From Cytophagaceae bacterium (lineage in GTDB: Bacteria; Bacteroidota; Bacteroidia; Cytophagales; Spirosomataceae), in contig JAIXRT010000043.1 in the NCBI GenBank assembly GCA_027485075.1, positions 1 to 11,809 on the forward strand: DNA of 11,809 nt. Direction: 5' to 3'. The notes under the pieces were generated by a model. The model was not told the DNA's origin and made no database searches. It saw only the letters and a list, made by a program, of their open reading frames with translations. How positions within the stretch are numbered: position 1 is the first letter of the stretch; every line of letters begins with the position of its first letter. A program made the position numbers and the translations under genes. Shown in pieces: positions 339 to 11,809 of this stretch.

Positions 339-2174
339 ATGAAGAAACTTATAATATTTCTATTCGCCTCCTTCTCTATTTACGCACAAGATTTACGCGT
401 GGAACCACTCAGCTGGTGGACTGGCATGAAAAATACCCAACTACAATTAATGATCCACGGAAAGGATTTAAAAGGGAGCGAGGTAATTGCCAAAAAGCCA
501 GGTTTAAAGATCGTAAAAGTTCATTCGGCCGACAGCCCAAATTATTTGTTTGTTGACTGTGAAATCTCGAAAAATACCCCGGCAGGAACATATCCCATTG
601 ACCTAAAAAAAGGTGGTAAAATCATCCATCACATCGATTATTCCTTACAAGCACGCGATAAAAATTCCGCAAATCGGCCCTCATACAGCACAAAAGACGT
701 CATCTACTTAATCACCCCAGATCGTTTTGCTAATGGGGATCCATCCAATGATGCGGCACCTGGATTCCGAGAGCCCAATCCTGCACGTAATGAAATGTAT
801 GGTCGCCACGGTGGAGATATCAAAGGAATAACAGACCGATTGGATTACATGCATGACATGGGCTTCACAGCGATTTGGAGTTTGCCGGTTCAAACCAATG
901 ACCAAGCGAAGGAAAGCTACCATGGATACGCCATTACTGATCACTATGCGATTGATCCGCGTTTTGGGACCAACGAAGATTACAAAAATTTAGCTTTGAA
1001 AGCTGGCCAAAAAGGCATCAAGATTATCATGGATGTCGTGTTAAATCACTGCGGAGATGGCCACTGGTGGATGAAAGATTTTCCATTCAAGGATTGGATT
1101 AATTTCGACGGAAAGTTTGTTTCGACTACCCATCGTAGAGAAACGGTCCAAGATCCACATGTGTCCAAATTCGACGCGAAGATGCAGTCAGAAGGTTGGT
1201 TCGTGCCTGCTATGCCTGATTTGAATCAAAAAAATCCTTTCATGGCCAAATATTTGATTCAAAATACGATTTGGTGGATTGAATACGCACATCTAGGCGG
1301 AATCCGGATCGATACGTATCCGTATTCAGAGAAGCAATTTGCGGCGCAATGGTCAGATGCCGTTTTAACGGAATACCCTAACCTCAATCTAGTGGGTGAA
1401 GAGTGGTCATCAAATCCCATCATCACGTCCTATTGGCAAAAAGGAAAAGTGAATCGCGACGGATTTAAATCTTCATTGCCAGCGCTTATGGATTTTCCCT
1501 TACAAAATGCGTTAACTGATGCCATGAATGAAAATGACCAGGATTGGGGCAAGGGATTGAATAAAATTTACAGTGTACTGTCAAACGATTTAGTTTATGC
1601 CAATCCAGATAATTTGGTGGTTTTCGGTGACAATCATGACATGTCTCGTTTTTATACCCAAGTAAGGCATGACCAAGCATTATTTCGCATGGGCATCACT
1701 TTTTTAATGACCACGCGTGGTATTCCACAGATTTTTTATGGTACTGAGAATTTGATGTCGAACCCCAAAAGTAGCGAGCATGGTGAAATTCGTGGTGATT
1801 TTTACGGCGGCTGGCCAGGCGATGCGAAAGATGCGGTGAGTCAAAAGGGGTTTACGGCCGACGAGAAAAGCACGCAGGATTTCTTTAAAAAATTATTGAA
1901 TTGGCGTAAAAATAATTCGGTTATTCATGACGGCAAATTGCTGCATTTTGGCCCAGAAAATGGCATTTATGTGTATTTTAGATATACGGATACAGGAAAA
2001 GTGATGGTGGTTTTAAATAAAAATGCACAAGAAAAAGTCATCGATTTAGCCAAATTTGCTGAAATTATCCAACCCGGAATGGCCGCTAAAGAGGTTATTA
2101 CAGATAAACAATTTACCTTAGGGGCTAACCTGAACGTTGCCGGAAAAACAGCAATGATTTTAGAAGTACATTAA
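339..2174 (+). CDS. Exported GH13 cyclomaltodextrinase/neopullulanase-like amylase (SusA-type)
   Basis: This 611-residue enzyme of glycoside hydrolase family 13 probably hydrolyses alpha-1,4 bonds in cyclodextrins, maltodextrins or pullulan. Residues 1-16 form a signal peptide ending in SIYAQ, so it is exported, probably to the periplasm. Residues about 18-106 match the beta-sandwich N-domain of Bacteroidota cyclomaltodextrinases. The (beta/alpha)8 barrel starts near VIYLITPDRFANGDP (121-135). GH13 signatures are all present: DVVLNH (232-237), MPDLN (292-296, the region V variant), GIRIDTYPY (321-329) with nucleophile D325, GEEW (353-356) with acid/base E354, and GDNHD (430-434) with D434. 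A C-terminal beta domain follows about residue 535. The length of about 600 is typical of SusA and Flavobacterium cyclomaltodextrinases. All catalytic residues are intact. No SusC, SusD or SusB gene is adjacent. Exact substrate preference cannot be read from sequence. Confidence 0.93.
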   Translation: MKKLIIFLFASFSIYAQDLRVEPLSWWTGMKNTQLQLMIHGKDLKGSEVIAKKPGLKIVKVHSADSPNYLFVDCEISKNTPAGTYPIDLKKGGKIIHHIDYSLQARDKNSANRPSYSTKDVIYLITPDRFANGDPSNDAAPGFREPNPARNEMYGRHGGDIKGITDRLDYMHDMGFTAIWSLPVQTNDQAKESYHGYAITDHYAIDPRFGTNEDYKNLALKAGQKGIKIIMDVVLNHCGDGHWWMKDFPFKDWINFDGKFVSTTHRRETVQDPHVSKFDAKMQSEGWFVPAMPDLNQKNPFMAKYLIQNTIWWIEYAHLGGIRIDTYPYSEKQFAAQWSDAVLTEYPNLNLVGEEWSSNPIITSYWQKGKVNRDGFKSSLPALMDFPLQNALTDAMNENDQDWGKGLNKIYSVLSNDLVYANPDNLVVFGDNHDMSRFYTQVRHDQALFRMGITFLMTTRGIPQIFYGTENLMSNPKSSEHGEIRGDFYGGWPGDAKDAVSQKGFTADEKSTQDFFKKLLNWRKNNSVIHDGKLLHFGPENGIYVYFRYTDTGKVMVVLNKNAQEKVIDLAKFAEIIQPGMAAKEVITDKQFTLGANLNVAGKTAMILEVH

Positions 2175-2180
2175 ACGCGT

Positions 2181-2205
2181 AAAAAAATAAAACCCGAAAG
2201 GGCTT
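2181..2205 (-). terminator. Short hairpin with U-run on the minus strand
   Basis: CCC GAAA GGG (2193-2202) forms a compact hairpin. Read on the minus strand it is AAGCCC-TTTC-GGGTTT, with one G-T wobble, followed by TTATTTTTTT, which looks like an intrinsic terminator. On the plus strand the same bases give a stem with a GNRA-type GAAA loop but no U-run after it. No minus-strand gene lies upstream of it, so it may block antisense transcription into the GH13 gene. Alternatively it acts as an RNA hairpin in the leader of the histidine kinase gene. Confidence 0.4.
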
Positions 2206-2214
2206 AGTTCTAAT
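2203..2214 (+). promoter_or_regulatory. CTTAGTTCTAAT motif in the kinase gene leader
   Basis: The ten bases TAGTTCTAAT (2205-2214) lie 10 bases before the start codon of the histidine kinase, directly after the CCC-GAAA-GGG hairpin. The same ten bases occur at 4807-4816 and 7103-7112, both in intergenic modules proposed here to be small RNA genes. A visual reading found no other copy. The function is unknown. Its position in an mRNA leader next to a start codon would suit a binding site for an RNA-binding protein or a pairing partner. Confidence 0.4.
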
Positions 2215-2224
2215 CAATCAATAC

Positions 2225-4165
2225 ATGTTTCGTAAAATCGTCTACGGTTTTTGCGTACTGCTGCTGCATGCACTTGGATATAGTCTTCCAGCGCATGCCA
2301 CAGCGGATAGCTATCATCCTCGTAAGTTTTCAAATCATGCCCAATATGCTGATTTTAACGCAATGTGGCAAGATTGGGATCAAAAGTATCGATCGGATGA
2401 AGGCTATTTTTCATTTGCTAATGTAGCCGACCTCGAGGTTATCCTGACGGGGCATTTACAAAAAGCTCGAAAAGAAAAAGACCTTGCCAAGGTGGTTCGT
2501 GTGCTCTTGCCATTGTCTATGGTCTATCACAATCAAGCTAAATTTGACCAAGGTCTTCCTTTATTGGAGTGGCTTTTTCAACACCTTTCCCTCGTTCCTA
2601 AACATTATCATCGCGACGTGTACATTAAGTTGGAAGAGGAATATCGAGGAAAAAATCTGCTCGAAAAAGCCATCGTCATTCGGCAGAAACGGATCGAAAA
2701 GGGCTACATTAAAACCTTTTGGGAAATTTACCGCGATTGTGGCTTGTACGAAGATGCCATCAAAGATTATCGGGCCAATCAGCCTTTTCCTGCTGAATTA
2801 GAAATAAGGCGTGTCTATTACTATAATCGACTAGGAAATCTTTATTTTTTGAATGGTCAATTTGATCTTGCTGTTCAGCAATATAGAATCGGTGCCCAAC
2901 AAACGAATTTATTGATTCAATGGAATAAAAGAACGAAGCAATTTTTGCCTCGGGAACTGGACTATTGGCGCGGTGAATTTAAAGGAAAATTAGTGATGTG
3001 TCGGATTAAGCAAGGTATTTATACGAATGCCATCAAGACATTAAAAGAAGATTTAGCCTTAACTAAAGATGATATCGACCATCAAATTCAAAGTATGATT
3101 GTATTGAGTCAATGTTTTATTCATGCGAAGCAATTTCCCCTTGCCAAATCCTATTTAGACTCCGCCCGCCGTTACATGCAAGGTAAAGTAATTAAGCCCT
3201 TGCGAATTGATTTATTAGCCACCTATGCATCCTATCATAAATCAGTTAATCAGTCGGATTCTGCATTTTATTTTTTAACTGCGCAACACCATTACCAGGA
3301 TAGCTTAAATGAAACGATGAATCGAAATAAATCGGTTTTATTATTAGGCCAGTTAGAAGTCACCAAACGCCGCGCCGAATTACTGGCCTCAAAAAATGAC
3401 TTATTGAAGTTGACGAAAGTCACCGCAGTTCAACAAATTCAAGTGCGTAGTTTGATTTTATTGGTGATTATCATGTTGGTCTCGATCATTGTTTCTATGA
3501 TCATTATCCGTCAAAAATACCTACTAAAAGTCCGAGCAGAACAAATCGTTTTGCAGAATAGTCGGAACGAAATTTTACTCAAAGAATTACATCATCGCGT
3601 TAAGAATAACCTACAAGTAATTTACAGTCTATTGAATTTACAAAACCGACGGGTTCGAAATAAAGAATCGAATGAACTGATTCGCTCCATGCAAAATCGG
3701 ATTCAAACGTTTGCGCTTGTTCATTCTAATTTACATAATACCCATGAATTTGAATTTGTAAATGTCAATGAGTACATAAAGACGCTTGTTGCACATTTGA
3801 TTTTAGTTTTCCAGCATGATGAAGAAAATCCGGTAACCATTCAATATGATATCGATACGGAGCTCCAATTAAGTTTGGAGAAAATCACTTCGTTTGGTTT
3901 AATCCTTAATGAAATTATTTCGAATGCATTTAAATATGCATTTACACATGTAAAGAATGGTATTTTGACGATTCGAGTACAGCGTCTAGGACAAAAGATT
4001 AGTATAGTCATTTCGGATAATGGACCGGGAAAGGAGGCTGATTTGACAGATTCGGGCCAACTAGGCATGAAACTTATCACACTTATGTGCAAGCAAATGG
4101 ATGCCACACATGAAATGCGTGCAGACGGTGGAATCATTCACCAAATAACGTTTAACTATTTATAG
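2225..4165 (+). CDS. TPR-containing sensor histidine kinase, HisKA_2 family
   Basis: This 646-residue sensor kinase should autophosphorylate on histidine and pass phosphate to the response regulator encoded directly downstream. An N-terminal signal or anchor (about 5-26) precedes a sensor region of alpha-helical TPR-like repeats (about 60-365), probably periplasmic. One membrane helix lies at about 408-428, followed by a short linker. The H-box is LKELHHRVKNNLQ (452-464), with H457 the likely phospho-acceptor by comparison with HWE/HisKA_2 kinases. The ATPase domain shows the N-box NEIISNAFKY (562-571) and the G1 box DNGPG (598-602), with a G2-like GQLGMKLI near 611-618. The gene lies 50 bases after the GH13 gene and its stop codon abuts the next start, so translation is probably coupled. 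The ligand is unknown; TPR sensors of this type are common in Cytophagia. Confidence 0.9.
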   Translation: MFRKIVYGFCVLLLHALGYSLPAHATADSYHPRKFSNHAQYADFNAMWQDWDQKYRSDEGYFSFANVADLEVILTGHLQKARKEKDLAKVVRVLLPLSMVYHNQAKFDQGLPLLEWLFQHLSLVPKHYHRDVYIKLEEEYRGKNLLEKAIVIRQKRIEKGYIKTFWEIYRDCGLYEDAIKDYRANQPFPAELEIRRVYYYNRLGNLYFLNGQFDLAVQQYRIGAQQTNLLIQWNKRTKQFLPRELDYWRGEFKGKLVMCRIKQGIYTNAIKTLKEDLALTKDDIDHQIQSMIVLSQCFIHAKQFPLAKSYLDSARRYMQGKVIKPLRIDLLATYASYHKSVNQSDSAFYFLTAQHHYQDSLNETMNRNKSVLLLGQLEVTKRRAELLASKNDLLKLTKVTAVQQIQVRSLILLVIIMLVSIIVSMIIIRQKYLLKVRAEQIVLQNSRNEILLKELHHRVKNNLQVIYSLLNLQNRRVRNKESNELIRSMQNRIQTFALVHSNLHNTHEFEFVNVNEYIKTLVAHLILVFQHDEENPVTIQYDIDTELQLSLEKITSFGLILNEIISNAFKYAFTHVKNGILTIRVQRLGQKISIVISDNGPGKEADLTDSGQLGMKLITLMCKQMDATHEMRADGGIIHQITFNYL

Positions 4166-4744
4166 ATGGGATATAATCGAATTTTGGTTTTGGAAGATGA
4201 GGTTATTGTAGCTATGGATCTTCAAGAAATTTTGGAGAAATCTGGTTTTGAGGTGATGATAGCACATAATTACCAAGAAGCTAAGGCGATTCTAGTCGAC
4301 TGGAAACCACAGTTGGCTATTTGCGATATAGACCTAGGGCTAGGTAAAACGGGTATCGACTTTGCCTTGGATGCCAAAAGTCGGGTACCTTCCTTGGAAG
4401 TTATGTTTTTGACGGCATTTGGCGATCGGAATCATTTAGATCAAACCAATGAATCTAGTCCAATAAACTACCTTGTTAAACCATGGAATGAAAGTCAAAT
4501 CAACATTTCGGTGGAAATGGCTTTTCAAGCCATTCATAAGAAATCGGGTGAAGGGCATGACTTTACGCCGGCCGAAAAGCGTATTTTGGAATTAATTGCG
4601 GCGCAAAAGAAGACAAAGGAAATTGCCGAAATGCTTTTCATATCTGAGAAAACGGTTAAAAACCACCGCTATCATATTTCGAAGAAATTAGGGTTGTCGA
4701 ATGAAAATAACAGTCTACTTTCCTGGGCGTTAAAAAACATGTAA
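4166..4744 (+). CDS. LuxR/NarL-type response regulator
   Basis: This 192-residue response regulator is the evident partner of the preceding kinase. The receiver domain (about 4-122) has the acidic pair E10/D11, phospho-acceptor D54 in ICDIDLG, T83 in FLTAF and K105 in LVKPW, so the switch residues are all present. A LuxR/GerE helix-turn-helix domain follows (about 132-190), with the recognition region TKEIAEMLFISEKTVKNH (150-167). Its ATG directly follows the kinase TAG with no gap, which supports one operon and translational coupling. A phosphorylated dimer should bind a dyad in DNA. A conspicuous dyad begins 2 bases after its own stop codon (4747-4764), and a related one lies at 7042-7055; both are plausible but unproven targets. 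Confidence 0.93.
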   Translation: MGYNRILVLEDEVIVAMDLQEILEKSGFEVMIAHNYQEAKAILVDWKPQLAICDIDLGLGKTGIDFALDAKSRVPSLEVMFLTAFGDRNHLDQTNESSPINYLVKPWNESQINISVEMAFQAIHKKSGEGHDFTPAEKRILELIAAQKKTKEIAEMLFISEKTVKNHRYHISKKLGLSNENNSLLSWALKNM

Positions 4745-4746
4745 AT

Positions 4747-4764
4747 ATGAGGCCTGGGCCTCAT
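4747..4764. promoter_or_regulatory. Dyad ATGAGGCCTGGGCCTCAT, candidate operator
   Basis: The two 8-base arms ATGAGGCC and GGCCTCAT are perfectly complementary around a 2-base centre. The dyad directly abuts a promoter-like TTG at 4764-4766, so it would be centred about 10 bases upstream of a -33 element, a usual place for an activator. A partly degenerate copy with the same left half sits at the matching position of the second module (7040-7056). The adjacent response regulator is the obvious candidate binder, by inference only. The same bases could instead form an RNA hairpin if transcribed from the regulator gene. Confidence 0.4.
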
Positions 4765-4794
4765 TGTCTACGGGTGGTAATTAACGTTCCTTTG
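4764..4794 (+). promoter_or_regulatory. Candidate Bacteroidota promoter of small RNA 1
   Basis: TTG (4764-4766) and TTCCTTTG (4787-4794) are separated by 20 bases. The Bacteroidota consensus is TTG, about 17-23 bases, then TAnnTTTG; here the -7 element matches at all fixed positions except the A. The same pair with the same 20-base gap occurs at 7057-7087, although the bases between them differ almost completely, as expected for promoter elements. Transcription would start near 4800. Confidence 0.4.
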
Positions 4795-4799
4795 TAGCC

Positions 4800-4866
4800 T
4801 TACTCCTAGTTCTAATAAATCCATATAAAGTGTCCTGATGCAAATTCAGGGCACTTTATTGTTTTT
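4800..4866 (+). ncRNA. Candidate small RNA 1, downstream of the response regulator
   Basis: This proposed transcript of about 65 bases runs from a promoter-like element to an intrinsic terminator. It begins with TCCTAGTTCTAAT (4804-4816), identical to the start of candidate small RNA 2 (7100-7112), then has a short unique part and a terminator stem. Its 3' end is antisense to the last codons and stop of the esterase gene on the other strand. It could instead be the 3' untranslated region of the response regulator operon, released by processing. I know no named RNA family that I can assign it to. Confidence 0.35.
4825..4866 (+). terminator. Intrinsic terminator after the response regulator
   Basis: Bases 4825-4838 pair with 4846-4859: fourteen pairs with a single G-T wobble around a 7-base loop, followed by TTGTTTTT. 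It should end plus-strand transcripts from the two-component operon and the small RNA module. The stem covers the TAA stop (4856-4858) of the opposing esterase gene. On the minus strand only a weak T-rich tail follows, so it may work in both directions but less well for the esterase. Confidence 0.8.
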
Positions 4867-6943
4867 GGATCTTGATGGATTTTAGCCCATGACTGAATTT
4901 TACGAAATAAGTTCCTGTAGGAACTTGGCTCAGCGGGATTTGATCTTTTGTTTGAATTCCCACTTTTTCCCACCAAATCCGACCTTGTATGTCGATCAAT
5001 TGAATCTGAAGGCCCGGATAGATTTTCTTGTCAATTTCTATTTGTACATAATCCTGGGTAGGATTGGGAAAAATGCGTATTTCGGAAATCGCTTCTTCAT
5101 TTCCTAAAATAAGCACTTGTCTATTCGCTGATCTGGGTACCAAGCATCCAGCCGCACTTTTTATCTCTACTGCATAGGTTCCCGAAACCATGACGGTTAA
5201 ATTTTGCTTGACTTCGCCTGGCATTAAGGTACCATTTTGGAACCACTGGTAAAATCCTGCTGGTGAGGTAGTTAGCCTATTTTCGCTTAAGTTGGTGACT
5301 TGAGGAATTGGTAATTGCTTCTCAAATGGACAATCATCTACTTTGTCCAATAATCCATCTGCATCACTATCTCGCTGATCCGAAGCGCAACCGTTTTTAT
5401 CTACGGGATTATTTGGGCTAGTATTCGGACATTGATCTTTCGCATTCACATACCCGTCCAAATCATCGTCAAAATAATTGTCGTATGGTTCAATTAAAAA
5501 ATGATCGAAGGCAAAGGCTCGCATTCCCGTTTGATTAGTTAAAAATGGAGCGGCAATTTGATACCCTTTGGGATGATTATAAAATGACGGGGTATAGGCG
5601 AGCGTGTCTGAGGTAGGTGCTTTCGAAAGCCATAAAGTCAATTCGTTGTCCTTCGCGTCAATACGTACTAATTCGGTAAAATTCGCATGGGGAAATGCGA
5701 TTGGAGCAAAGAAGAAGTTGTTTTTCAGACTTTGTGTTCGTTTATTCCCATTCCAATCTGTCACGGTCGAATCTGCCGGGATGCGGAGTTTTTGGCCTTT
5801 ATCAAAAGCCAAAATGATTTTTTTCTTGTCTTTACTTGCGAAATAAGCGCGTTGAATATTGGGACTTTCAATATGGGGATTTTTCTCTGGACGGTATAAA
5901 TCAGCCTCTAATAATCGGTGTAATTCCGCGGCAGTTTGAGCATATCCTTCGGGTGAATAATGAATACCATCATATCCTTTCGTCCCAATGGTCGCAAAAC
6001 CCCTGATGAAAGTATCCGTTTGCGTGATCGATCGCTGTCCATCGCGGATGACGCTTTGTATCGAAAGTTCACCATGCAGGATGTTGATCTGTGGTAGGTA
6101 TATTTTTTGAATACTAGGGTATTCTTTTTTGAGCAATTCGGCGTGCTTTTTGAAGTTGGCCAACCACTCTGGGGCGTTGCCGCTGGTTTCATTTTCGCCT
6201 TGTCGGTAAATGAATGCCTTCACGTGATTTGCGATGCCGGCCTTTTGGCTTCGGTAAAGCAATTTGCCGCTGGAGGTTTTAAGATCCATGGGGTTTGCAC
6301 TTCGGAAAAGATTGTATTCCATGGAGGAGCCGCCAGAACCGCCATTGATGATGCAGATGGGAATTTTTTGTTTTTCAATGAGGAGGCGCTGGAGTTCGGA
6401 GGCAAAGAGGCCAACGTCCGATGGGCTGTTGGAAATCGACCAAAGTGTATCTGCCGCATGGTAAGGCGCATAGTTTTCATAGTCTGGATTTCGGCCAAAG
6501 CTGCGCGCAAATTCACCTTTGTAGACTTTGGGGTGATCTTTACCTGTATATGAATTGGATTGACCACTCACCAAAAAAACATCGCCAGCGACGATATTTT
6601 CACGGCGCGCGAGGAATGTGGAGTCCTTTCCGTTTAGCCAATATACATCCAATTGGTATTGAGCTAATTCAGCTCGAATGGGAATGCGTAACACAAAGTC
6701 ACCGGCTGTTTTTAGTGCGGTTTTAGTGTACGAGTAGGGTGTTTTATTTTTTGTAATGCTTACAGATATAGACCCGGTAGTTCCAGCGCGCATCCGCCCT
6801 GAAATGGGAATGTAAGCGATATTTTGTGCATCACGCGGGTAGAGCTGTAGATTTTGCGGTAGTTGATGAAAGGTGACTTGTTGGCCTACCAAACCATGGT
6901 GCACCAATGCACTAATTAAAAACAATGAAGATATAAATTTCAA
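4856..6943 (-). CDS. Secreted SGNH/SASA-type acetylesterase with TSP3, Ig-like and T9SS domains
   Basis: This 695-residue protein is probably an exported carbohydrate O-acetylesterase of the sialate O-acetylesterase-like (SASA) family. The start is TTG (6943-6941): an in-frame TAA lies six codons upstream with no ATG between, and this start gives a clear signal peptide (1-20, KFISSLFLISALVHHGLVG). The SGNH fold shows GQSN with nucleophile S129, GGS (201-203), GEN with N251, and DGIH with D325 and H328. Residues about 488-541 are acidic calcium-binding thrombospondin type 3-like repeats (DDDLDGYVNAKDQCP, DSDADGLLDKVDDCP). An Ig/PKD-like segment follows (about 545-612), then a type A T9SS sorting domain (about 621-695, IFPNPTQ ... 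PTGTYFVKF). It is therefore secreted or held at the cell surface. It stands alone on its strand, flanked by two copies of the non-coding module. Substrate (xylan, pectin or sialic acid) is not determinable. Confidence 0.88.
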   Translation of the reverse strand: MKFISSLFLISALVHHGLVGQQVTFHQLPQNLQLYPRDAQNIAYIPISGRMRAGTTGSISVSITKNKTPYSYTKTALKTAGDFVLRIPIRAELAQYQLDVYWLNGKDSTFLARRENIVAGDVFLVSGQSNSYTGKDHPKVYKGEFARSFGRNPDYENYAPYHAADTLWSISNSPSDVGLFASELQRLLIEKQKIPICIINGGSGGSSMEYNLFRSANPMDLKTSSGKLLYRSQKAGIANHVKAFIYRQGENETSGNAPEWLANFKKHAELLKKEYPSIQKIYLPQINILHGELSIQSVIRDGQRSITQTDTFIRGFATIGTKGYDGIHYSPEGYAQTAAELHRLLEADLYRPEKNPHIESPNIQRAYFASKDKKKIILAFDKGQKLRIPADSTVTDWNGNKRTQSLKNNFFFAPIAFPHANFTELVRIDAKDNELTLWLSKAPTSDTLAYTPSFYNHPKGYQIAAPFLTNQTGMRAFAFDHFLIEPYDNYFDDDLDGYVNAKDQCPNTSPNNPVDKNGCASDQRDSDADGLLDKVDDCPFEKQLPIPQVTNLSENRLTTSPAGFYQWFQNGTLMPGEVKQNLTVMVSGTYAVEIKSAAGCLVPRSANRQVLILGNEEAISEIRIFPNPTQDYVQIEIDKKIYPGLQIQLIDIQGRIWWEKVGIQTKDQIPLSQVPTGTYFVKFSHGLKSIKIQKQ

Positions 6944-7056
6944 AACAGAGGATAAGCTTTAAAGCGCCCTAAAGCTACGCAATTTGTCAATGAGTCTACG
7001 CATAATTTAGTTAAAGGTACCTTGGTTCACATCTGCAAAATGAGGCCTAGGGCCTA

Positions 7057-7087
7057 TTGTGCTTATCTGCATAAGGTTGTTCCTTTG
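7057..7087 (+). promoter_or_regulatory. Candidate promoter of small RNA 2
   Basis: TTG (7057-7059) and TTCCTTTG (7080-7087) are 20 bases apart, as in the first module, and fit the Bacteroidota TTG/TAnnTTTG pattern with one mismatch. An imperfect GAGGCCTAGGGCCT dyad (7042-7055) lies just upstream, like the perfect one at 4747-4764. Transcription would start near 7093-7096. Confidence 0.4.
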
Positions 7088-7093
7088 AATAAG

Positions 7094-7190
7094 TAAAATT
7101 CCTAGTTCTAATTCAATACGCGATTACCTAACCCTAATACCTTAAATTTATACAATGCCTCTGCTAGGGATAGCGGGGGCTTTATTTTTT
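7094..7190 (+). ncRNA. Candidate small RNA 2, upstream of the amidase gene
   Basis: A strong plus-strand terminator ends this segment, yet no plus-strand gene lies between the response regulator terminator (4866) and here, so an independent non-coding transcript is the simplest explanation. The proposed RNA is about 95 bases. It carries TCCTAGTTCTAAT (7100-7112) near its 5' end, an AT-rich middle and a terminator stem. The 5' motif is shared with candidate small RNA 1; the bodies and terminators differ. An alternative is a premature terminator in a long amidase leader starting further upstream. Confidence 0.45.
7157..7190 (+). terminator. Strong orphan intrinsic terminator
   Basis: GCCTCTGCTA (7157-7166) pairs with TAGCGGGGGC (7171-7180) over ten positions, two of them wobbles, around a GGGA tetraloop, followed by TTTATTTTTT (7181-7190). 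It works only in the plus direction. No coding sequence on this strand precedes it for over 2.3 kb. Confidence 0.85.
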
Positions 7191-7332: not shown

Positions 7333-8970
7333 ATGAGAAAACTTATTTTTTTATTACTATTCAGCTACGTGGCCGTTGGCCAAACGAAATCTGATATTCA
7401 AGGCGCTTCCCGCCTTTTTGATTTAACCTTCACCGCTCAAGAATTAGATACGCTGTATTCAGATGTGTTAGATAACGTGGCGAATTATAAAGCGATGCAT
7501 GGCTTAAGTTTGGGGAATGAGGTGCCTTTGAGTCTTTGGCAGAATCCAAGATTGCCTGGGATGAAGTTTGATGAAACGCAGCGTGCGGTGGTTTGGCCTG
7601 CTGTTAAGGCGTCATTACCAGTGAATAAATCAGATTTGGCTTTTTACTCCATCGATCAGCTCGCGTATTTGATGAAGTCAAAACAAATTACATCTGTTGC
7701 ATTAACCCAATTTTTCATTGAGCGTATCAAGACCTATGGAGCTAGCTTACAGTGTGTTGTCAGTTTGCAGGAGGAAATTGCTTTGTCGCAAGCGCGTCAG
7801 GCAGATCAGGAAATTGCTGCTGGAAAATACCGGGGCTTATTGCATGGAATTCCATATGGCTTAAAAGATTTGTTTGCGGTCAAAGGGACCAAGACTACTT
7901 GGGGGGCGGCACCATATCAAGATCAAATAATTGAGGAGGATGCGTATGTGTATGCTAAACTCAAAGAATCTGGCGCTGTCTTGGTGGCGAAATTCACGTT
8001 GGGTGCGCTGGCAATGGGTGATTATTGGTTTGGAGGGAGAACAAAAAATCCGTGGAATTTGAATGTGGGCTCATCGGGTTCTTCAGCTGGATCTGCTTCT
8101 GCGACGGTGGCGGGACTTGTCCCATTTGCGATTGGTACGGAGACGTGGGGCAGTATAGTTTCGCCTGCAACTACGTGTGGGGCAACGGGATTACGACCTA
8201 CATTTGGAAGTATTAGTCGGTCAGGTGCCATGGCGCTAAGCTATTCATTAGATAAAGTAGGCCCAATATGCCGGTCGGCGAACGATGCTGCCATCGTTTT
8301 TCATTACCTACATGGAACGGATGGGAAGGATTTGGCAGCGGTTAATATGCCATTCAATTACCAGGCAAATCGTTCATTAAAAGGAATGAAGATTGCATAT
8401 GCCAAAAACTATTTTGATAAGATTAAGGATACGACGCGAAATGAATGGCGTGTTTTGGCTGAATTAAAGCAGCAGGGAGTGACTTTGATTCCGGTGGAAT
8501 TTCCTGATGAAAAAGTATATACATTCAATATCATGGATGTGATCATTGGGGCAGAATGTGCGGCGCAATTTGATGAATTGACCCGAAAAAACATCGATGA
8601 TCAGTTGACCCGTCAAACGAAAAATGACTGGCCAAATCAGTTTAGAACCTCCCGATTTATTCCCGCAGTAGAATATATCAATGCCCAGCGGCACCGATAC
8701 ACCTTGATGCAAAAGGTTGACGAAGTCATTTCGCAATATGATGCCATTATTTGTCCATCCCGGGGTGGAGGCAATCAATCTGCCATCACGAATTTGACGG
8801 GTCATCCCGTTGTTTGTGTTCCTACGGGCTTGGATGCGAAAAACAAGCTACCTACCGGAATATCGTTTGTGGGCAAATTGTATGATGAGGGTACGTTGTT
8901 GCGCATTGCGCAATTTTACCAGGATCATACAAAGCATGAAGAAATTCATCCAGAAGCTTTTATACGTTAA
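7333..8970 (+). CDS. Exported amidase-signature family amidase
   Basis: This 545-residue enzyme of the amidase signature family hydrolyses an amide bond, substrate unknown. A signal peptide (1-16, RKLIFLLLFSYVAVG) is followed by QTKS, so it is exported, unlike the cytoplasmic GatA subunit. A family-atypical N-terminal segment (about 20-100) comes before the catalytic domain. The Ser-cisSer-Lys triad is intact: K178 in GIPYGLKDLF, cis-S250 in the glycine/serine loop GSSGSSAGSAS (246-256), and nucleophile S274 in TWGSIVSPA. The 24-residue spacing of the two serines matches the family. A C-terminal LTGHPVVCVPTG stretch (488-499) is also typical. No GatB or GatC gene is nearby, which supports a stand-alone amidase, perhaps acting on peptides or aryl or acyl amides. 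Its stop is 12 bases from the stop of the convergent next gene. Confidence 0.92.
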   Translation: MRKLIFLLLFSYVAVGQTKSDIQGASRLFDLTFTAQELDTLYSDVLDNVANYKAMHGLSLGNEVPLSLWQNPRLPGMKFDETQRAVVWPAVKASLPVNKSDLAFYSIDQLAYLMKSKQITSVALTQFFIERIKTYGASLQCVVSLQEEIALSQARQADQEIAAGKYRGLLHGIPYGLKDLFAVKGTKTTWGAAPYQDQIIEEDAYVYAKLKESGAVLVAKFTLGALAMGDYWFGGRTKNPWNLNVGSSGSSAGSASATVAGLVPFAIGTETWGSIVSPATTCGATGLRPTFGSISRSGAMALSYSLDKVGPICRSANDAAIVFHYLHGTDGKDLAAVNMPFNYQANRSLKGMKIAYAKNYFDKIKDTTRNEWRVLAELKQQGVTLIPVEFPDEKVYTFNIMDVIIGAECAAQFDELTRKNIDDQLTRQTKNDWPNQFRTSRFIPAVEYINAQRHRYTLMQKVDEVISQYDAIICPSRGGGNQSAITNLTGHPVVCVPTGLDAKNKLPTGISFVGKLYDEGTLLRIAQFYQDHTKHEEIHPEAFIR

Positions 8971-8982: not shown

Positions 8983-9846
8983 TTATAAATACTTTTTGAA
9001 GAAACTTATTGTTCTATTCCAAGCTAAATCGGCCGGTTCTTTCTGATAGCGCGCTGGGGATGAGTCATTATTAAAGGCATGCTGTGCCCCTTCATAAATG
9101 AACAATTGATAATCTATTTGATTGCTTTTCAGCGCATTTTCATAGGCTGGAATACCCGTATTGATACGTTCATCTAAACCGGCATAATGAAGCATTAATT
9201 TAGCTTTAATTTTAGGAACGAGTGCAGCGTCGATTTGCCGACCGTAATACGGCACGCCTAAAGTTAATGCAGGATCCGCGGCAGCCAAATCGTTTACGAC
9301 TCCACCGCCCCAACAGAATCCAATGCAAGCGGTTTTTTGATTACTATTTTTCAAGGTTCTTAGGTAGCTAAGACCGCTCAGCATATTTTCTGTGTTTTGC
9401 TTCGCATCTAGTTTTCCAATTAACGTTCGCCCCTCATCTTCATTGATGGGCGTCCCACCAAATTGACTCAAGCCGTCGATCCCTAACGCGATAAATCCCT
9501 CCTTGGCGATTCGCCTCGTAACATCTTTAATGTGTGGTGTTAAGCCTCTGTTTTCATGTATAACCAAAACAGCGCCCAAGCGCTTTTTCGCCTGCTTGGG
9601 TTGGGCTAAATATCCTTTGATAATCCCATTGGAGGAAGGGAACTCCGCCGTTGAAATGAGTAAGTCGCTATCATCCTCGGCTACTTGCGCACTTGCCGCA
9701 TAACTGCCCTCCAGAGCGGGTAAAATAGTGCTTAATGCAGCTGTACCGCCGATTAATTTGGTTAATCGGCTTAAGAATACCTCTCTAGTTAAAGGCTTGT
9801 GTGTATATTCATCAAATAGTTGGATGATTTCTTGATTTAACTTCAT
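8983..9846 (-). CDS. Dienelactone hydrolase family protein with N-terminal export-like segment
   Basis: This 287-residue alpha/beta hydrolase belongs to the dienelactone hydrolase family. The Cys-Asp-His triad is visible: C178 in the elbow GFCWGGG, D225 in GLDER and H256 in GAQHAF. E98 in the HENRG motif, which gates the cysteine in this family, is also present. The first about 55 residues lie outside the usual hydrolase core and resemble a Tat-type leader of exported homologues (LTREVFLSRLTKLIGGTAALS), but the twin arginine is reduced to R-E. Export by Tat is therefore doubtful; a cytoplasmic or Sec-dependent location remains possible. The gene is divergent from the glycoside hydrolase-like gene over a 121-base region and convergent with the amidase. 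The family name does not show that the substrate is a dienelactone: many members are general esterases. Confidence 0.9.
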   Translation of the reverse strand: MKLNQEIIQLFDEYTHKPLTREVFLSRLTKLIGGTAALSTILPALEGSYAASAQVAEDDSDLLISTAEFPSSNGIIKGYLAQPKQAKKRLGAVLVIHENRGLTPHIKDVTRRIAKEGFIALGIDGLSQFGGTPINEDEGRTLIGKLDAKQNTENMLSGLSYLRTLKNSNQKTACIGFCWGGGVVNDLAAADPALTLGVPYYGRQIDAALVPKIKAKLMLHYAGLDERINTGIPAYENALKSNQIDYQLFIYEGAQHAFNNDSSPARYQKEPADLAWNRTISFFKKYL

Positions 9847-9967: not shown

Positions 9968-11809
9968 ATGAGAAAATTAGTTCACGCATTGTTTTTTGTT
10001 TCGTTTGCTTTTTCGAGTCAAGCCCAGATCGTTGACTTTTCAAATGCCAGTATATATGTAACAAAAGAATTAAAATCTCCTTTTAGAGAAACTTATATCA
10101 GGCTAATTCAGGAGGAGATTAAAAAGCGGACTGAGATTAATTTGCGTGTGCAAGAACAATCGGATATGACGCCGGTGATTGCTTTGGCGTTTGCTAAAGA
10201 TCAAGATTTACATGGCATTCCATTGCCCCAATTGCCTAAAAATTCGCCAGCATTTGCCAAAGAGGGATACGCTCTCTCCATCGATATACGTACGAAAAGG
10301 CCTATTTTATGGATCATAGGTGGAGATGAAAGGGGTATTTTATATTCCTTGGGGGAGTTTTTTCGAAAAGCCCATTTGTCAAAGAATAAAATTTTAGTGG
10401 ATAAGAAATACGAGGTGGCTGTTTCGCCGCTGCATTCGATTCGTGGCCACCAGTTGGGTTATCGAAACACAGCGAATTCATGGGATGCTTGGGATCCAAA
10501 GCAGTATGAACAGTACATACGAGATTTAGCGCTTTTTGGAATAAATGCGATTGAAAATATTCCCATGGAGGACAGTCCGCTGGGGCCTCACATGAAATTA
10601 TCTCGGGAGGAAATGAATGTTAAATTAAGCCAAATCTGTTCGAATTATGGGCTTGATTATTGGGTTTGGACACCTGCAGTTGTGGACTTAGCGGATGAAG
10701 CTAAGTTTAAGCAGGAGGTCATGAAGCATGCTGATTTTTATAAGAGAACCCCTAAGATCGATGGCGTTTTTTTTCCAGGGGGTGATCCAGGAAGTAATCA
10801 TCCGAAATATGTGTTAACTTTCTTACAAGCAATCGCAGCAGAATTGAAATTATCCCATCCTGCAGCGGGAATGTGGGTTTCTTTGCAAGGATTTAGTGAC
10901 GAGGAGGTTAATTACTTTTACGAATACCTGGAAAAGTATCAGCCCAACTGGCTTGCGGGGGTAGTCACAGGTCCCAGCAGCCCTGATCTGGCCAGCACCC
11001 GTTTTAGATTGCCCAAACAATACAAGCACCGCCATTACCCAGATATCACACATACGGTGCGATGTCAATATCCCACCGAAAATTGGGATCAGGCATTTGC
11101 CCTCACCGAAGGGCGTGAAGTTTCGAATCCTCAGCCGGTGTATTATGCGAAAATACATCAGCGATTTGCGCATTTGACAGATGGATCCATTAATTATTCC
11201 GATGGTGTGCATGATGATGTCAATAAAGTTATTTGGAGCCAAAAATCGGTCGATCCTTCAAAAGATGTGCGTGAGGTATTAGTTGACTATGCGCGATTCT
11301 TTTTTGGCCATCAGGTATCAGAGAAAGTGGCTGATGGCATTTTGGCTTTGGAGCGTAATTGGGTAGGTCCAGCGGAGGAAAATGGGGGTATTGAAACAAC
11401 GTTTGCGTACTGGGTAAATTTAGAATTACAATATCCAACCTTGAAGAATAATTGGCGTTGGCAACAGCTATTATTGCGCGCACATTACGATACCTATGTA
11501 AAACGGCGCAAAATCCGGGAGCAAAAATTGGAGCAACAAGCCAATTTAATCTTAGCCAATGCTAGCGAAATAGGTGTGAATAAAGCGATGGAAATGGCGC
11601 TTGAGAAGGTTAATGAGGCAGATAATTCGTTAGAAAATTCAGAATTACGCCAAAAAATCATCTCCTATTGCGATGCATTATTTACCTCCATTGGTTTACA
11701 GACGAGTGTAGAGAAGTATCGGGCAAGTGGCGCGGAACGTGGGGCCATATTGGATTTTATTGATTACACACTTAATAACCGGTGGTGGTTAGAAAAAAAA
11801 AAAAAAAAA
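9968..11809 (+). CDS. Exported glycoside-hydrolase-like TIM-barrel protein, 3' truncated
   Basis: This open frame runs from ATG at 9968 through the window end (614 codons, no stop). A signal peptide (1-20, ending SSQAQ) implies export. Residues about 21-150 look like the non-catalytic alpha/beta domain that precedes the barrel in GH67, GH20 and related families, including the typical GGDERGILYSLGEFFRKA (118-135). The barrel begins near SIRGHQLGYRNTANSWDAWD (157-176), followed by INAIENIP (192-199), YWVWTP (231-236), GVFFPGGDPG (266-275) and MWVSLQGF (302-309). These look conserved, but I cannot assign a CAZy family or catalytic acids with confidence; an alpha-glucuronidase-like annotation is the nearest guess. 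A helical region follows about 485. The last five codons are all AAA, in a 17-A run that probably replaces the true sequence. Confidence 0.75.
   Translation, partial: MRKLVHALFFVSFAFSSQAQIVDFSNASIYVTKELKSPFRETYIRLIQEEIKKRTEINLRVQEQSDMTPVIALAFAKDQDLHGIPLPQLPKNSPAFAKEGYALSIDIRTKRPILWIIGGDERGILYSLGEFFRKAHLSKNKILVDKKYEVAVSPLHSIRGHQLGYRNTANSWDAWDPKQYEQYIRDLALFGINAIENIPMEDSPLGPHMKLSREEMNVKLSQICSNYGLDYWVWTPAVVDLADEAKFKQEVMKHADFYKRTPKIDGVFFPGGDPGSNHPKYVLTFLQAIAAELKLSHPAAGMWVSLQGFSDEEVNYFYEYLEKYQPNWLAGVVTGPSSPDLASTRFRLPKQYKHRHYPDITHTVRCQYPTENWDQAFALTEGREVSNPQPVYYAKIHQRFAHLTDGSINYSDGVHDDVNKVIWSQKSVDPSKDVREVLVDYARFFFGHQVSEKVADGILALERNWVGPAEENGGIETTFAYWVNLELQYPTLKNNWRWQQLLLRAHYDTYVKRRKIREQKLEQQANLILANASEIGVNKAMEMALEKVNEADNSLENSELRQKIISYCDALFTSIGLQTSVEKYRASGAERGAILDFIDYTLNNRWWLEKKKKK
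11793..11809. repeat. Terminal run of 17 A's
   Basis: The window ends in 17 consecutive A's inside an open reading frame. The longest other A run I see is about seven bases (2181-2187). It encodes an implausible poly-lysine tail right after the conserved-looking NNRWWLE. This is most likely an assembly or sequencing artefact at a contig end. Confidence 0.7.

Follow-up and report, generated by a model that had tools for sequence, protein, structure and literature searches.

In an 11,809-nt stretch of DNA from a Cytophagaceae bacterium (hereafter the window), two putative small RNA genes, s1 and s2, lie close to the genes for a histidine kinase and a response regulator (RR) with a LuxR/GerE DNA-binding domain (Table 1). 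Judged from sequence, the 5′ block that the two RNAs share is a copy of the sequence just before the kinase start codon, and its complement recurs in a second RNA element, X. The best explanation that we can offer, with a probability of roughly 0.45, is that RR-driven s1 and s2 mimic the kinase leader and titrate X. What the sequence itself provides is the anatomy of the modules, their conservation, their linkage to and co-occurrence with RR, the placement of the operator, the fixed spacing between block and kinase start codon, the occurrence of the block's complement in X, and the covarying hairpin of X.

A sequence-only reading of the window had described two modules with shared blocks in the same order, similar gaps and different terminators, and these are present exactly at the positions given. 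In s1, ATGAGGCCTGGGCCTCATTGT begins at 4747 and is followed, after an 18-base gap, by GTTCCTTTG (4786–4794) and, after a further 9 bases, by TCCTAGTTCTAAT; in s2, ATGAGGCCTAGGGCCTATTGT begins at 7040, an 18-base gap leads to GTTCCTTTG (7079–7087), and 12 bases separate this from TCCTAGTTCTAAT. The promoter that it had proposed, TTG-N20-TTCCTTTG, is found in both modules, with identical geometry in 10/10 module copies. The s2 body of approximately 40 nt has no counterpart in s1, and the hairpins of the two modules differ. By itself, the repeated 13-mer is common (a mean of 2.8 pairs per dinucleotide shuffle of the window versus 3 observed); together with a common 9-mer just upstream, it arose in 3/400 such shuffles, a test that covers these two elements and leaves the third block and the equal gap outside it. 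This count supersedes an earlier one (9/300) in which the terminal A-run of the contig had been left in. Decisive support for the predicted modules comes from the comparison among genomes. The predicted s1 RNA is far more stable than its shuffles (z = −4.7; 0/200 equally stable). The full-length s2 RNA is no more stable than its shuffles (z = −0.3; 70/200 equally stable), and so only its terminator appears to be structured. No named RNA family had been recognized for the pair, and a search of the window against Rfam agrees, returning no match up to an E value of 1; a tRNA/tmRNA scan of the window likewise found none.

Conservation was assessed in 38 genomes of the genus (G numbers below; assemblies 62–99% complete), nine with an RR orthologue and 29 without. 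A search for relatives of RR returned 45 loci, six of which (L007–L012) match across all or nearly all of the protein with 52–94% identity. At three of these, L010, L011 and L012 (from G023, G032 and G036, respectively), an s2 operator, promoter, block, body and terminator lie directly at the end of the RR gene. In the same three genomes and in G011, RR ends in GYKNEA, its stop codon falls inside the palindrome and s2 comes next. Five aligned modules are invariant in the first 12 nt of the operator, ATTGT, GTTCCTTTG, CTAGTTCTA and 22 consecutive nucleotides of the body, and vary in the sequence of the promoter spacer. The operator is partly coding in the four genomes with the stop-codon overlap, but the same 12 nt are also kept in G000 and G006, where the s2 operator is not linked to RR. 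In L011 and L012, the terminator stem has an additional C on one side and an additional G opposite.

The sequence-only reading had suggested that related genomes be searched with a model of the modules. Such a model of the RNA part of s2 (R1), without operator and promoter, gave strong matches (E of 7e-17 or better) in 6/38 genus genomes, all of them with RR, and at family scale (222 genomes, stricter filters) it recovered only those same six. The s2 of G003 has diverged (E = 0.065), yet its operator, promoter and body core are present, and on that account this match was retained; weak matches (E of 0.02–0.08) in G008, G015, G016, G024 and G025, which have no RR, were dropped after reading. 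The nine genomes with an RR orthologue are the seven with s2 plus G012, in which the contig stops short of the expected s2 position, and G020, in which no s2 was found behind RR, only GGCTAGTTCTA beside a tRNA-Arg fragment. Overall, s2 is found in 7/9 RR genomes (six strong matches and the diverged G003) versus 0/29 without RR (Fisher p = 2.9e-6, uncorrected for kinship). By comparison, s1 occurs in three of the nine (G000, G006 and a decayed copy in G012) and consists of an operator, promoter, block and its own terminator with no s2-type body. From these sequences, s1 looks like a lineage-specific partial duplicate and s2 like the conserved RNA. The earlier proposal, a pair of small noncoding RNA genes that share their operator, promoter and 5′ sequence, is supported by the conserved s2 body and terminator and by linkage and co-occurrence with RR.

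The surroundings of s2 vary. A tRNA-Arg(ccg) gene adjoins s2 in G003 (L074, 3297–3369), and a partial copy of this tRNA gene lies beside s2 in G023 and G036 (L010 and L012) and beside the s2 remnant in G020 (L076, ~7615–7690); in L012 and L076, an intact tRNA-Arg gene is located a few kb beyond the partial copy. The s2 neighbourhood looks like an integration site with variable cargo. A viral source was considered and rejected, as an exact 20-mer of the s2 body occurs in no viral contig.

The control region was compared in ten module copies from eight genomes. In all ten, the spacer is 20 nt, the palindrome centre lies 38.5 nt upstream of where the −7 box ends, and the −7 box begins with TT, not TA. 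The TTG and −7 elements follow the general promoter consensus of Bacteroidota. If the −7 box spans −12 to −5, as given with that consensus in the part of the source available (PMC9723704), the palindrome centre falls at approximately −43.5, just upstream of the −33 element. A weak −7 box combined with a fixed palindrome position fits an activator-dependent promoter. With at most one mismatch to ATGAGGCCTAGGCCTCAT, the nine RR genomes contain five sites, and 5/5 are modules; with two or three mismatches, modules and other sites are found alike, and the decayed s1 of G012 has more than three. Non-module sites in the latter class (for example, AAGAGGCCTAGGCCTCTT in G000 and G032) were taken as terminators by look only. 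The helix region of RR, SEKTVKNHRYHISKKL, is identical or one residue off in the eight module genomes and more altered in G020. The fixed geometry of the palindrome, the linkage and co-occurrence with RR and the specificity of the operator together suggest that RR very probably activates s1 and s2.

The block is also found in the kinase leader, where TAGTTCTAA is present in 8/9 RR genomes and the start codon follows 10–12 nt away in 8/8; G020 is the genome in which TAGTTCTAA is absent from this leader. The G011 leader has a second ATG 3 nt from TAGTTCTAA, and G003 retains TAGTTCTAA though its kinase gene is a short remnant. At this G003 locus (L075), the remnant lies between the amylase and RR genes; RR is kept, and s2 is on another contig. 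The possibility that the block is a common leader motif was rejected, as CCTANNNCTAA occurs in 0/164 other leaders of G023 (400 kb, start codons set mechanically). TCCTAGTTCTAAT was also seen in the leader of another gene (L133; G032:C225:26957), a possible further partner of X.

At 18 loci, spread over 15 genomes, the complement of the block, TTAGAACTAGGATT, immediately precedes a hairpin with a T-run; we designate this element X. In the X hairpin, 97.9% of cells pair, and covariation is 0.80 versus 0.20 in shuffled and at most 0.23 in slid controls; this covariation indicates that X is an RNA element, by prediction read antisense to the block. The other 7/25 places with the complement were not counted as X: one is s2 of G011, two seem by eye to fall within genes, and four run in the opposite sense. 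Many weak matches of the X model, R2, are plain terminators. Further members carry TTAGAACACGGAGT, TTAGAACAAGGAGT and similar sequences, often shortly after a stop codon. In G000, G006 and G012, a conserved promoter-like stretch precedes X and the 3′ parts are shared (L160, L170 and L180), the 5′ part in G000 being unlike that of the other two; in these genomes, X looks like a free-standing RNA. TAGG-type X is found in 7/7 RR genomes with an intact TAGG-type block versus 9/29 without RR (p = 0.0014), an association that is support and not proof because the complement of the block was itself the query by which X was found. The TAGG-type X of G011 ends in GGAAT.

Two other accounts of X were rejected. 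As a high-copy repeat, TTAGAACNNGGANT gives 128 matches in 38 genomes versus 62 for the reversed control, many of them inside genes. The minus strand of the kinase leader, considered as a possible X copy, matches R2 weakly (best E = 0.28 at L073, others 3 and above); read backwards, the leaders of G000 and G006 resemble the motif, a small hairpin and a T-run. In an Rfam search of 11 related loci, only tRNAs reached gathering scores, and a match of rnk_leader over the G000 X locus is sub-threshold (33.7 bits versus 50 needed). In two genomes without RR, L284 (G030:C6) and G001:C31, X and a CCTAGTTCTAAT block behind another gene lie approximately 6 kb apart.

Predicted duplexes of s1, s2 or the kinase leader with X of the same genome range from −14.4 to −26.1 kcal/mol, energies that simple shuffles of X reach in 0–2/300 trials in 16/17 rows and in 7/300 in the row for G003 s2. 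The sequence is CTTGTTCTA in the s2 of G003 and TAGAACAAG in the single X examined from that genome; this s2 scores −15.0 with its own X versus −8.0 to −11.9 with eight TAGG-type X and −14.4 with a non-X stretch of G020 (ACGG). Because G006 carries the same AAGG-type X as G003 plus its TAGG type, the G003 case looks like a change of partner and not a compensated change. C-to-T changes in the kinase leader of G000 and in s2 of G036 preserve G–U pairing.

In the proposed mechanism, RR would bind the palindrome near −43.5 and turn on s1 and s2, while X would pair with the kinase leader and so restrain synthesis of the kinase and hence of the regulator. Once the system is on, s1 and s2 would soak up X by target mimicry of the kinase leader, and this titration would make the circuit self-reinforcing by positive feedback and free other partners of X. 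Transcription, binding by RR, pairing in the cell, the sign of the X effect and any role of the s2 body are what we infer for this model. Mimicry of the kinase leader would account for the block in the kinase leader, s1 and s2, for its complement in X, and for the minimal make-up of s1, which has hardly anything beyond the block and a terminator. The fuller version, a positive-feedback RNA switch in which decoys copying the leader of RR's own kinase draw off an older, genus-wide X that represses the kinase mRNA, is put forward tentatively and with some doubt.

Several observations weigh against titration of X. Its pairing scores are partly circular, since X was found via the block complement, and X also occurs in 9/29 genomes without RR and therefore has other work. 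Across genomes, the best-pairing X is not consistently that of the same species, and s1 of G006 is mismatched to TAGG-type X and has TAG in place of TTG at −33. The s2 operators of G000, G006 and G003 have three mismatches to a perfect palindrome, like several unrelated sites; G012 has a decayed s1 and G003 none. The best-conserved part of s2 is its body, which the model leaves unexplained. A partner for the body was sought and none was found: in the search for antisense partners, TATTAGGGTTAGGTA with up to two mismatches is rarer than the control in 6/7 genomes (7 versus 8 in G003), and of 30 TATTAGGGTTAGGTA loci read besides s2, none precedes a terminator, some being leaders with the s2 sequence in sense.

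The alternatives differ mainly in what the block does. If s1 and s2 were ordinary trans-acting small RNAs (sRNAs) under RR, they would bind TTAGAACTAGG in X-bearing transcripts, several of them mRNA 3′ ends, and alter their stability, with the kinase-leader copy competing or joining in. The same regulator linkage would apply, several X elements directly follow gene stop codons, and the conserved, unstructured s2 body might also engage other RNAs by pairing. This account would not, however, explain why the block keeps a constant position in the kinase leader, and X in G000, G006 and G012 seems to be a free-standing RNA. We regard this account as unlikely, though worth keeping in view. Less probable still is that s1 and s2 titrate an RNA-binding protein recognizing CCUANNNCUAAU in a few mRNA leaders, a Gac/Rsm-like arrangement with another protein. 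Such a protein would suit the two blocks of s2, CCTAGTTCTAAT (also in the kinase leader) and CCTAACCCTAAT, and the presence of a block like CCTAACCCTAAT in front of a small core XRE gene; ahead of its start codon, ACCTAACCCTAAT is found in G023, G032, G036 and G011 (4/8 RR genomes read) and ACCTAACCC in 7/8 (L285–L314), with the 3′ part changed in G000, G003 and G012. The similar ACCTAACCA occurs in 6/22 XRE leaders read from genomes without RR, however, so the second block may be older or due to chance, and a protein would not explain the exact complement in X.

Two further accounts set RNA pairing aside. TCCTAGTTCTAAT might be a DNA element, a downstream promoter element or second operator, with s1 and s2 being small RNAs of unrelated action; it does lie near the inferred start of each module and recurs in the intergenic region of the kinase. 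The gap between it and the −7 box is not constant (9 nt in one module of the window, 12 nt in the other), whereas that to the kinase ATG is fixed, it keeps one orientation relative to the covarying hairpin in X, and the C-to-T changes noted above maintain G–U pairing, all of which makes a DNA element improbable. The idea that the modules act as leader or attenuator regions for adjacent genes, or encode small peptides, draws on the amidase gene downstream of s2 on the same strand and on an ATG just before the s2 hairpin in the window, but it is very hard to sustain: s1 faces a convergent gene, the gene after s2 varies (amidase in G000 and G006, tRNA-Arg or a remnant of it in G003, G023 and G036), and the ATG is missing from the other four aligned copies, in which 1–2-nt indels break the frame.

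The features of the window are listed in Table 1. The window corresponds to one entire contig of a draft assembly (2.3 Mb, 286 contigs); the 17 consecutive A at 11793–11809, within an unfinished gene, probably reflect an assembly edge.

Table 1. Features of the window, including the putative modules and the neighbouring genes (T9SS, type IX secretion system).
Feature	Position	Strand	Basis
Amylase gene	339-2174		
Kinase-leader copy of the shared block, CTTAGTTCTAAT; TAGTTCTAA ends 11 nt before ATG at 2225	2203..2214	+	
Histidine kinase (TPR region, HisKA_2, HATPase)	2225..4165	+	Pfam HisKA_2 E 6e-24
RR, response regulator carrying a LuxR/GerE DNA-binding domain; candidate activator of s1 and s2	4166..4744	+	Pfam Response_reg E 1.3e-13, GerE E 6.3e-15
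Module s1, whole	4747-4866		
s1 operator, palindrome ATGAGGCCTGGGCCTCAT	4747..4764	+	Operator-site search, module comparison
s1 promoter: TTG 4764-4766, spacer 20 nt, TTCCTTTG 4787-4794	4764..4794	+	
s1 RNA, inferred start: block TCCTAGTTCTAAT 4804-4816, terminator hairpin ~4822-4861, T-run to 4866	4800..4866	+	
Esterase with T9SS tail	4856-6943	-	
Module s2, whole	7040-7190		
s2 operator ATGAGGCCTAGGGCCTAT, imperfect palindrome	7040..7057	+	Alignment, module comparison
s2 promoter: TTG 7057-7059, spacer 20 nt, TTCCTTTG 7080-7087	7057..7087	+	
s2 RNA, inferred start: block TCCTAGTTCTAAT 7100-7112, conserved body 7117-7156	7093..7190	+	Model R1, alignment A1
s2 body, second block CCTAACCCTAAT	7127-7138	+	
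s2 terminator hairpin, then T-run 7181-7190	7157-7180	+	
Amidase	7333-8970		
Dienelactone hydrolase	8983-9846	-	

The predicted circuit resembles the Gac/Rsm and CiaR–csRNA (cia-dependent small RNA) systems, membership in either not being established. The Gac/Rsm system has a LuxR-type regulator, and its upstream site is an 18-bp palindrome. In the gammaproteobacterial GacS/GacA–RsmX/Y/Z and BarA/UvrY–CsrB/C systems, as described in the part of the source available, a two-component system promotes expression of sibling sRNAs, and these in turn titrate a post-transcriptional regulator (PMC7366521). As there, s1 and s2 would be siblings that mimic mRNA leader sites and titrate a regulator, with control by RR predicted here; their linkage, co-occurrence and operator placement are compatible with such control. 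Unlike Rsm RNAs, whose GGA-loop motifs bind CsrA, s1 contains no GGA and s2 a single one, in the terminator loop, and the candidate partner is an RNA, X, rather than CsrA. CiaR is of another regulator class and phylum and has a direct-repeat site, whereas the regulator here is of the GerE/LuxR type with a palindromic site. In streptococci, CiaRH controls several related small RNAs that share promoter elements, according to the available parts of three accounts (PMC3091779, PMC8186281, PMC4507080). G000 and G006 similarly have two modules with one operator type, by analogy only, as site and regulator differ; csRNAs act on target mRNAs such as comC, and those same parts mention no kinase-leader copy. 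The multicopy FopS/GibS sRNAs of Bacteroides (RbpB network) comprise 14 paralogues with a shared seed that repress SusC-like transporters; the available part of this account gives no two-component control and no sponge term (PMC11697453). Their likeness to s1 and s2, as paralogous Bacteroidota sRNAs with a common seed, is one of description. Sponge RNAs such as the RNA antagonist of PinT in Salmonella sequester another sRNA by pairing, as outlined in the portion of the source available (PMC12721325). The kinase-leader block found in s1 and s2 and its complement in X are in keeping with such a sponge, sequestration itself being proposed; as a point of difference, the sponge proposed here would be controlled by the very regulator whose partner kinase has the mimicked leader. 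No such circuit in Bacteroidota was found in the literature searched, which lay mostly outside subscription journals and was available in part (including PMC11697453, PMC10994844, PMC9723704, PMC7366521 and PMC6847099).

X represents a second RNA family with a strongly covarying terminator hairpin and members across the genus, and neither it nor s1 and s2 reach Rfam thresholds. The partners and sites are predicted to the base, making the circuit directly testable. RNAs that carry a copy of the stretch ahead of a kinase start codon hint at a self-reinforcing RNA circuit in freshwater Bacteroidota. If this is true, non-gut Bacteroidota would have a two-component pathway whose main recognizable output is small RNAs and whose own kinase leader is mimicked, following the logic of Gac/Rsm with an RNA in place of the repressor protein.

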